Positions 1 through 2,271 of a stretch of 32,109 nucleotides of DNA are shown one piece after another. Under the pieces are notes generated by a model, which saw only the letters and a list, made by a program, of their open reading frames with translations, was not told the DNA's origin and did not search any database. Position 1 is the first letter of the stretch. Every line of letters starts with the position of its first letter. Where the stretch lies: the NCBI GenBank assembly GCA_030726915.1, contig JANRCR010000027.1, positions 1-32,109 on the forward strand, read 5' to 3'. The position numbers and the translations under genes are program-made. This stretch comes from Candidatus Nanopelagicales bacterium (lineage in GTDB: Bacteria; Actinomycetota; Actinomycetes; S36-B12).

Positions 1-119
1 AGGTCTGGGACCGAGGTGGCCTCGGTCCACAGGTCATCCTCAGCCTGACTGGCTTGGATCTGGCGGTACACCAGGTAGCCGATACCGGCCAGGGCAATGA
101 CGAGCAGCAGTTTCTTCAT
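1..119 (-). CDS. DLW-39 family small protein (C-terminus cut by window edge)
   Basis: Translated from the ATG at 119, this reads 39 residues to the window edge without a stop. It has a short N-terminal hydrophobic segment starting MKKLLLVIAL and the diagnostic ...AEDDLW motif at about residues 27-31, which names the DLW-39 family. That family is a roughly 40-residue actinobacterial protein of unknown function usually encoded just after tRNA-Ile near gyrA. The hydrophobic stretch (about residues 4-18) suggests a membrane-anchored peptide. The start is forced: an in-frame TAG lies three codons upstream (complement of 126-128) and no GTG or TTG lies between. The ATG is therefore one base beyond the mature 3' end of tRNA-Ile, with no room for a ribosome-binding site outside the tRNA. 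The stop codon is not seen. Confidence 0.85.
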   Translation of the reverse strand, partial: MKKLLLVIALAGIGYLVYRQIQASQAEDDLWTEATSVPD

Positions 120-120
120 G

Positions 121-195
121 TGGGCCTAGGTGGACTTGAACCACCGACCTCTTCCTTATCAGGGAAGCGCTCTAACCGAGCTGAGCTATAGGCCC
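121..195 (-). tRNA. ileT: tRNA-Ile(GAU)
   Basis: The reverse complement folds as a full cloverleaf. It has a 7-bp acceptor stem (GGGCCTA with TAGGCCC), a GCTC/GAGC D stem, a CTTCC/GGAAG anticodon stem around loop CTGATAA (anticodon GAT), a GGTGG/CCACC T stem with loop TTCAAGT, and discriminator A. The CCA tail is not encoded. An isoleucine tRNA in this position, downstream of gyrA and the DUF3566 gene, is standard in Actinobacteria. The 3' end abuts the DLW-39 start codon. Confidence 0.97.
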
Positions 196-231
196 TCGAA
201 CAGAGCGCTCAGGCTACACATCGCCCCTCGG

Positions 232-2271
232 TCACGCCCCGACCGGGGCCGACCTCAGACCCGCCCGACGGCCCACGAGCACGGCGGCCAGGTAGATCAC
301 CGCCGCCACCACAATGAGGAACCGATAACCCGTCAGGAGGGACAGATACTCCAGGCAGCCGCCAATCATCGCGCCAAAGAGGTTGGCGGCGAAGGCTGCT
401 GTCGGGTTGGCCGCCTCCTTGAATCGCGACGTGAAGTAGAGATTGGCGAAGAAGATCGGGGCGAAGGCCAAGATCACCGCCAGCAGCAATCGCACCGGGA
501 CCGGCACCGTCAACAACCAGGCGTTGGGCACGAGCCACAGCACCGCGAGGGAGATAAAGAGGGCCGCAATCACCCAGCGCCGCGGCGGGGTACATCGTCT
601 GGTGACCTCGATAGCCAGCAGGACCGCGCAGAGCACCCCCGCAAAAACCAGGGCATTGACCAACCACGTCGTACCGAAGAGCAGCGCGAAGGTCGTGATG
701 GAGCGCGTCTCTAAGAGGAGGAAGGCCATGCCCATGAGGAAGAGGTCCAGGTAGCCGCGCATTTGTCGCAGCGGCCCGCCGACGACACGGATGGCGATGA
801 TCGACACGGCAAGGATGAGACCAATGAGCAGCAGGTAGATGCTCGGGATGGAGGCATCCTTGAGATAGAGGAACGGACGATCATCGCCGGACGCCTGCGG
901 GATCTCCTCACCCGCGGCAACCACCGCGTCGCGCTCCCAGGTGTCAGCGCAGACAGCATTGTCCGAGGCCTTGCCCACCGCGATGACGGCCAATGATTGG
1001 ACCGCGGTGAATCGGTCGATGCAGGGGGCGTGCCCGAACACCTCGTCGACGGTGCCCGCGAGACGGTTGATGAGCCAGTCCTCGCGGTAGTAGTTGTACA
1101 TAGCGAAGACGCCATCGGGACTGAGATGGTCGTAGGCCTCCTGGATCGACTCACGCGTGAAGAGGTAGGACTCCAGGCGCAGTTGGCTCGCGCCCGAGAC
1201 GAGCGTGAGGGAGTCGGGCAGTGCAAAAAGGATGAGGTCGTACTCGGTGTCGGTGCGGGATAGGAAAGCGCGACCATCGTCGATGTACGTCGTCACGCGC
1301 GGATCGGCGTACGGCTGGTTGGGATTTTTTTCCTCACCGATCTGCTGAATGCGCGGATCAATCTCGACCGCGTCGACACGTTGAGCACCACGCGAGAGCG
1401 CCAGCGCTACATCCGTACCCGTCCCGGCGCCGATCACCAGCACATTGCGCAGGGGGTTGTCCACGGCCCGCTCGTAGGGTCGACCGTAGAGCGGCTCATC
1501 CTGCAGGCGGCTTTCGGCATCCAGCACGTTTTGATGTGGGATGCCATTGACCTGCACCGCGGTATACGGCGCGGGCTGGGCATCCGGGTAGTCCTGTGTC
1601 GTCACCTTGTAGTAAGGAGACCAGGAAACACCCGGCGTCAGTGACTCCAGTGCCAGGAGGACGATAATGCCGATGCTCGCCAGCCACGAGATGATCGGAA
1701 GCGATCGTCCGTAGAGCAGGACGAGTGCGATGAGGAGCACCGTCGGCCAGATCCACGAGGGTGAGCGCAGGAAAGCCACGAGCGTGAAGGACAGGGTCCC
1801 GGCGATGGAGCCGATGATGTCCCACCGATAGGCGTCAAGGGCCGTGAACTCCAAGAATGCGCGTCCGGTGATCTCCCCGAGCAGGGTCATGGCGAAGGCG
1901 ACCACGATGAAGACGAGGGGAAGGGTGATCCACGTGGGCAAACCGGTTGGCTTGACCTCGGTAAAGAAGATCAGGTCACTGGATGATCCCTCAATGCGTG
2001 CGGGGAAGACCGTGATGAAGATGATCAGGACCGCGAGTGCCACGGGAGCAAAGCGCCCCAGGTCTCGCTTCTTGCGTGCGCGCAGGAAGCCCAGTCCGAT
2101 CCCCAGGAACGACGCCAGGAGGATGAGGTTGGAGAAGTACGACAGATGGACAAGATTGGCGCCCGTCCACTTGATCAGGGCCAACTGCACAAACAACATC
2201 AGGGCACTCGCCACCACGAGGCGAAGTCGGGCCGAGAGCAGTCCCACGGGCACGGTCGCCTGCGCTGTCAC
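232..2271 (-). CDS. Polytopic membrane protein with spermidine-synthase-like methyltransferase-fold domain
   Basis: This 679-residue protein has three parts. Residues about 10-210 hold a run of hydrophobic helices. Residues about 220-450 hold a Rossmann core of the spermidine synthase type, with GAGTGTD at 281-287, acidic residue E303 in AVEID and the DDGRAF motif at 331-336. Residues about 470-670 hold a second set of hydrophobic helices. Proteins with this layout are annotated as membrane 'spermidine synthase' but few have a proven reaction. The usual catalytic aspartate loop reads FALPDS here, so aminopropyl transfer is not assured and another SAM-type nucleophile transfer is possible. It starts at GTG 2271 with only a weak Shine-Dalgarno. 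It sits downstream of tetR and a broken small ORF on the same strand, suggesting one transcript. Fold confidence is high, substrate unknown. Confidence 0.85.
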   Translation of the reverse strand: MTAQATVPVGLLSARLRLVVASALMLFVQLALIKWTGANLVHLSYFSNLILLASFLGIGLGFLRARKKRDLGRFAPVALAVLIIFITVFPARIEGSSSDLIFFTEVKPTGLPTWITLPLVFIVVAFAMTLLGEITGRAFLEFTALDAYRWDIIGSIAGTLSFTLVAFLRSPSWIWPTVLLIALVLLYGRSLPIISWLASIGIIVLLALESLTPGVSWSPYYKVTTQDYPDAQPAPYTAVQVNGIPHQNVLDAESRLQDEPLYGRPYERAVDNPLRNVLVIGAGTGTDVALALSRGAQRVDAVEIDPRIQQIGEEKNPNQPYADPRVTTYIDDGRAFLSRTDTEYDLILFALPDSLTLVSGASQLRLESYLFTRESIQEAYDHLSPDGVFAMYNYYREDWLINRLAGTVDEVFGHAPCIDRFTAVQSLAVIAVGKASDNAVCADTWERDAVVAAGEEIPQASGDDRPFLYLKDASIPSIYLLLIGLILAVSIIAIRVVGGPLRQMRGYLDLFLMGMAFLLLETRSITTFALLFGTTWLVNALVFAGVLCAVLLAIEVTRRCTPPRRWVIAALFISLAVLWLVPNAWLLTVPVPVRLLLAVILAFAPIFFANLYFTSRFKEAANPTAAFAANLFGAMIGGCLEYLSLLTGYRFLIVVAAVIYLAAVLVGRRAGLRSAPVGA

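Follow-up and report, generated by a model that had tools for sequence, protein, structure and literature searches.

The stretch of DNA analysed here, referred to as the window throughout (32,109 nucleotides), starts at the edge of its assembly contig (G000:C27), and two genes on the minus strand lie almost without spacing next to this edge. The first is a tRNA-Ile(GAU) gene of 75 nt (195-121), whose acceptor strands GGGCCTA/TAGGCCC are fully paired as read from the sequence and whose discriminator base is A121; the RF00005 model matches 121-195, and the ARAGORN call (195..120) is one base longer. Reading on along the minus strand, the discriminator is followed by a single base, C120, which corresponds to C74 of the tRNA, and then directly by the ATG (119-117) of DLW-39. 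The coding sequence of DLW-39 (3..119, minus strand) breaks off with the contig; its 39 visible codons match, in a profile search, the family model NF038356 (actino_DLW39) with an E-value of 9.3e-16 and 57.4 bits against a cut-off of 24. As base 1 of the window lies inside the gene, its 3' end and stop codon are absent from the window; the protein of a genus mate (G247) has 41 amino acids. The in-frame codons upstream of the ATG are CAC, GCC and TAG, the last of these (128-126) lying within the acceptor stem, and an upstream in-frame start is thereby excluded. A -10-like TANNNT box, TAGCCT (216-211, minus strand), recognised by consensus match only, precedes the tRNA by 15 nt. The window stretch is present in a single copy in its genome, and of 30 tRNA genes read from that genome this is the only one for Ile(GAU).

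An earlier note on this DNA, made from the sequence alone, had placed the discriminator at 121 and the ATG at 119-117 with one base between them, which is exact, and had argued that the TAG bars an upstream start, to which we can add that none of 53 loci with the same spacing of one nucleotide (1-nt loci) offers an alternative in-frame upstream start. In a genus mate the junction sits inside a multi-gene block (L192:875-7902), which we take to consist of genes for a gyrA-like protein, a small membrane protein, a spermidine-synthase-like protein, tRNA-Ile, DLW-39 and a peptidyl-prolyl isomerase, in this order.

DLW-39 is present in 203 of 296 genomes sampled from the class (E ≤ 0.001; 198 of them over the family cut-off), and the tRNA found within 110 nt upstream of it is tRNA-Ile(GAU) in all 128 unique loci that have one there. 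The gap between this tRNA and the start codon is bimodal: it measures 1 nt in 50 of 214 unique loci, a count inflated because part of the loci stem from searches for short gaps, and then 17, 18, 20 nt and upwards, with no locus at 0 or 2-16 nt; the junction of the 1-nt loci always reads A-C-RTG. The empty range is not an artefact of these searches, since they allowed gaps of 0-4, 0-6 or 0-30 nt. The same picture emerges from 179 unique loci collected by protein match alone, with 26 at 1 nt, 69 at 17-110 nt, 18 beyond, none at 0 or 2-16 nt, and 66 tallied as having no tRNA in the stretch. Loci whose tRNA is truncated, such as L226, were tallied as lacking a tRNA although the junction is visible in them. 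Repeats, defined by identity over 40 nt upstream plus 60 nt of coding sequence (150 nt upstream for the SD and start-codon counts), were removed before counting, and HMM scores below 15 were dropped (below 20 for the TANNNT-distance and 179-locus counts, and below 30 for the genus table).

Scans of whole genomes gave corresponding results. With gaps of 0-30 nt allowed, 394 genomes of the class yielded 18 at 1 nt and 21 at 17-30 nt, along with one 11-nt match lying away from the DLW-39 locus of its genome, and among 166 genomes of the window's order the gap was 1 nt in 42 and 21-30 nt in 10. In a scan of 84,980 species in which gaps of 0-4 nt and any intervening base were allowed, all 51 DLW-39 matches (one of them identified from the 15 residues left ahead of a contig edge) showed exactly 1 nt, always a C, and of 17 non-DLW-39 matches 6 lay at 1 nt and 11 at 2-4 nt, a contrast that exceeds chance. 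One locus, in a Candidatus Ancillula MAG (L165), was left out of the counts: its A-C-ATG is present, but its protein has no NF038356 match. There, a tRNA-Ile-like end is followed by C-ATG and a different, lipoprotein-like ORF of 62 residues, perhaps a replaced or degenerate DLW-39.

The earlier note had proposed a comparison of this spacing across Actinobacteria and had stated that its reading would be refuted if the gap varied among relatives and held ribosome sites. This is what most Actinobacteria read show: their gap amounts to tens of nucleotides, usually with an SD-like motif (at least 4 nt in 56/71 loci and at least 5 nt in 33/71). The 1-nt arrangement is therefore a derived state of some lineages and does not characterise DLW-39 in general.

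The derived state is spread over several groups, namely the kinship families f1, f4 (7 genomes in the order scan), f19, f31 and f32 (one genome each in the class scan) and a Bifidobacteriaceae MAG (L190). Its carriers include Frankiaceae bacterium BP_195 (f19), Nocardioides sp. SYSU D00038 (f32) and N. flavescens (L226), and within the window's family it is found in 35 of 85 genomes and 9 of 14 genera, DLW-39 itself being present in 62 of the 85. The tRNA end of the 1-nt Nocardioides, CTGTTAGGCCCAC, is common to congeners with gaps of 24-46 nt and an SD-like motif, which indicates that the 1-nt state arose in place while the native tRNA was kept. The 1-nt junction thus occurs in five or more families and, judged from this distribution of sequences, has evolved repeatedly; f1 and f4 belong to the same order, and the 1-nt state of the window's order may go back to one ancestral event. 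If gaps of 0-16 nt were drawn at random in five families, the chance of one shared value would be about 1 in 80,000, a figure that serves as illustration only and is not a phylogenetic test.

Apart from the junction itself, these loci show no recognisable start signal. An SD of at least 5 nt occurs in 0/53 1-nt loci and AAGG in 6/53; a TANNNT box is found in 0/50 at the distance typical of leaderless starts (5-9 nt before the start codon; 2.1 expected by shuffling) and in 0/50 inside the tRNA. In 38/50 loci such a box does occur further upstream, at most 45 nt ahead of the tRNA, and TAGCCT (216-211) is the probable promoter of a joint tRNA/DLW-39 transcript; a strict sigma-70 scan requiring a -35 box gave no promoter or terminator in window positions 1-420. 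An SD within the tRNA (TAGG, 128-125) was considered and rejected, as it forms part of the acceptor stem and varies among relatives (TGGG or TATG). The joint precursor folds no better than its shuffles (z -0.82), and its fold is consequently uninformative.

The reading frame itself is maintained. DLW-39 of the 1-nt loci is under purifying selection, with divergence of 0.146, 0.058 and 0.341 at codon positions 1, 2 and 3 over 170 pairs. The start codon is GTG in 32 and ATG in 21 of the 53 loci, many of them from scans that required RTG, and the MKK start of the protein is conserved while the codon alternates.

We hold with moderate confidence, on the strength of sequence comparison, that the DLW-39 mRNA is made leaderless by a tRNA 3' cut after C74. 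The tRNA and DLW-39 would be transcribed together from the tRNA promoter, and the tRNA 3'-trimming nuclease would cut between positions 120 and 119, one base beyond the discriminator. The tRNA would retain A-C and be completed with C and A by the CCA-adding enzyme. The downstream piece would be a 5'-phosphorylated mRNA with AUG, or in many relatives GUG, as its very first nucleotides, and it would be translated as a leaderless message. A single cut would both finish an essential tRNA and create the only translatable form of the DLW-39 message. The core of this proposal, a message made leaderless by processing, is supported by the convergent 1-nt spacing, by the lack of an SD or of an own -10 box, by purifying selection and by the leaderless promoters of sister genera described below. 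An RTG placed right at the 5' end proved both necessary and sufficient for such translation in mycobacteria, where SD-less leadered starts failed in a reporter (PMC4633059); according to a review, leaderless translation is favoured by a phosphate at the 5' end and by a short distance (PMC9031893). The cut after C74 fits leaderless translation because the RTG then stands exactly at the 5' end of the mRNA, whose first 8 nt are predicted to be unpaired.

The position of the start codon depends on the exact place of the cut: with a cut after C74 the A-C-RTG junction puts the start exactly at the 5' end, and with a cut after the discriminator it is one base off. The earlier note had suggested the latter, with RNase Z leaving C-AUG, a one-base leader that would have to be translated as such. 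Canonical tRNase Z does cut CCA-less precursors after the discriminator, and the spacing fits this equally well; we nevertheless regard it as unlikely, since the published actinobacterial maps place the cuts elsewhere. Differential RNA-seq of P. acnes (Cutibacterium) found cleavage within CCA triplets, in the examples given "always between the Cs" (PMC3848588). In S. coelicolor, most of 12 CCA-encoding tRNAs are likewise cut between the Cs, and several CCA-less tRNAs are described as processed "within a few nucleotides downstream". These between-C cuts come from families other than the window's and from CCA-encoding tRNAs. In addition, the mycobacterial work found that the RTG had to stand exactly at +1 (PMC4633059), which a C-AUG message would not provide.

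A further argument comes from the tRNA genes of the window genome, since in all 30 that were read, out of 37 RF00005 matches, the discriminator is followed by C, although only 3 encode CCA; this is hard to square with a constant removal of the base, and a C as special adaptation of the DLW-39 locus was rejected on the same count. Elsewhere, C at +1 was found in 12/12 genes in Streptomyces, 13/13 in Mycobacteriaceae, 13/13 in Bacteroidota, 11/11 in Acidimicrobiales and only 5/12 in Treponema (the family labels of genomes G018 and G003 in this comparison being inferred), which points to some phyla encoding C74 as a rule. Since Bacteroidota share the feature, it does not by itself prove a cut site. 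Weighing the published maps with the retained C, a cut after C74 appears more likely than one after the discriminator, and the mRNA would then start exactly at AUG or GUG, not at C-AUG.

RNase Z, the nuclease named in the earlier note, is likewise an unsafe candidate. None of the 166 genomes searched in the window's order holds a match to the tRNase Z model TIGR02651 that exceeds the cut-off, compared with 9 of 14 control genomes, and P. acnes has no obvious tRNase Z (PMC3848588). The best candidate of the window genome, an RNase Z-like protein of the MBL fold (L331:2384-3130, on G000:C22), reached 215 bits in the search with the model for cyclic-nucleotide phosphodiesterases, below the cut-off of 400, and 103 bits with that for RNase Z, and was rejected as RNase Z because it stands nearer to the phosphodiesterase. 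Its neighbours are presumably murI and rph. Of the note's reading, the comparative evidence supports the core, a leaderless message whose 5' end comes from tRNA processing, and lends no support to the cut after the discriminator, to RNase Z or to generality.

Alternatively, the spacing could merely reflect genome compaction, with DLW-39 translated from the uncut co-transcript by SD-less internal initiation. The genes do abut, the window's order has small genomes and a co-transcript is plausible, but the start codon would then adjoin a stable acceptor stem. Moreover, compaction predicts a range of short gaps, yet the values of 0 and 2-16 nt are empty, and a Nocardioides genus (g54) with genomes of 3.3-5.3 Mb still carries the junction. 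Compaction is accordingly an improbable explanation.

A promoter within the tRNA, giving rise to a primary leaderless transcript from the ATG, is less probable still. It draws on the fact that sister genera appear, by sequence, to use such promoters: among the loci of the window's family without the 1-nt junction, a TANNNT box lies 6-8 nt before the start in 20/28, compared with 1.3 expected by shuffling, and in the rest of the sample a box at leaderless distance occurs in 4/131 against 3.0 expected. The loci with an own box at 6-8 nt include L034, L038, L151, L154, L155, L157-L159, L228-L230 and L239-L246; 6 of the 28 loci, from genus g119, have a strong SD. At the 1-nt loci, however, neither the leaderless distance nor the tRNA body holds a TANNNT, and a separate DLW-39 promoter, whether at the start codon or within the tRNA, was rejected on this consensus. 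In the window's family DLW-39 therefore has the look of a leaderless gene, made so by a promoter or, as we infer, by a tRNA cut, with one arrangement taking the place of the other; genus g5 contains both, with the junction in 2 genomes and the promoter in the other 10 read. In one genome (G354, L241) DLW-39 is present twice, 50 nt and 1363 nt downstream of the tRNA, and the two copies have an identical leaderless promoter sequence.

That the frame is not translated from the window's ATG, or that the arrangement is a neutral relic, is equally improbable: the gene is broken by the contig end and DLW-39 is known here from sequence alone, but the family model is over its cut-off, divergence is biased to the third position and the MKK start is kept across the ATG/GTG switch.

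On a broader level, we lean slightly towards the view that bacteria have repeatedly evolved tRNA punctuation, in which the C74 cut would be, in at least five families, the sole creator of a start-first DLW-39 mRNA, its synthesis being tied one-to-one to the maturation of tRNA-Ile(GAU). If true, this would constitute a bacterial form of mitochondrial tRNA punctuation, leaderless mRNAs would gain a source other than promoters, and a conserved protein, DLW-39, would be coupled to tRNA supply. The junction also makes testable the place and the nuclease of the actinobacterial tRNA 3' cut, and why C follows the discriminator in CCA-less genes. In the literature searched, neither a description of tRNA processing as the origin of a leaderless mRNA in bacteria nor a paper on 'DLW-39' was found.

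Several known systems share parts of the proposed arrangement. In the tRNA-tufB operon of E. coli an mRNA lies downstream of tRNA in one transcript, as proposed for DLW-39; the tufB message carries an ordinary leader with a ribosome site, whereas the DLW-39 start codon would be exposed by the cut itself. Actinobacterial leaderless mRNAs made by promoters resemble the DLW-39 message in the RTG expected at the exact 5' end, the lack of an SD and the use of both ATG and GTG; their 5' end is the transcription start (Shell et al., 2015; PMC4633059), whereas DLW-39, which lacks its own -10 box, has a predicted 5'-monophosphate processing end. The leaderless mRNAs attributed to the stress toxin MazF of E. 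coli, which are disputed in a review (PMC9031893), would also be made by a nuclease after transcription, which in the case of DLW-39 would be routine tRNA maturation. The closest known system appears to be the tRNA punctuation of animal mitochondria. There, tRNA end processing reportedly frees mRNAs that have no 5' untranslated region, as Ojala, Montoya and Attardi are said to have described in 1981. In both cases the 5' end of the mRNA, here predicted, would come from tRNA end processing and carry no 5' untranslated region, whereas DLW-39 represents a single small gene on a bacterial chromosome, a derived state of some lineages, and a cut proposed to follow an encoded C74.
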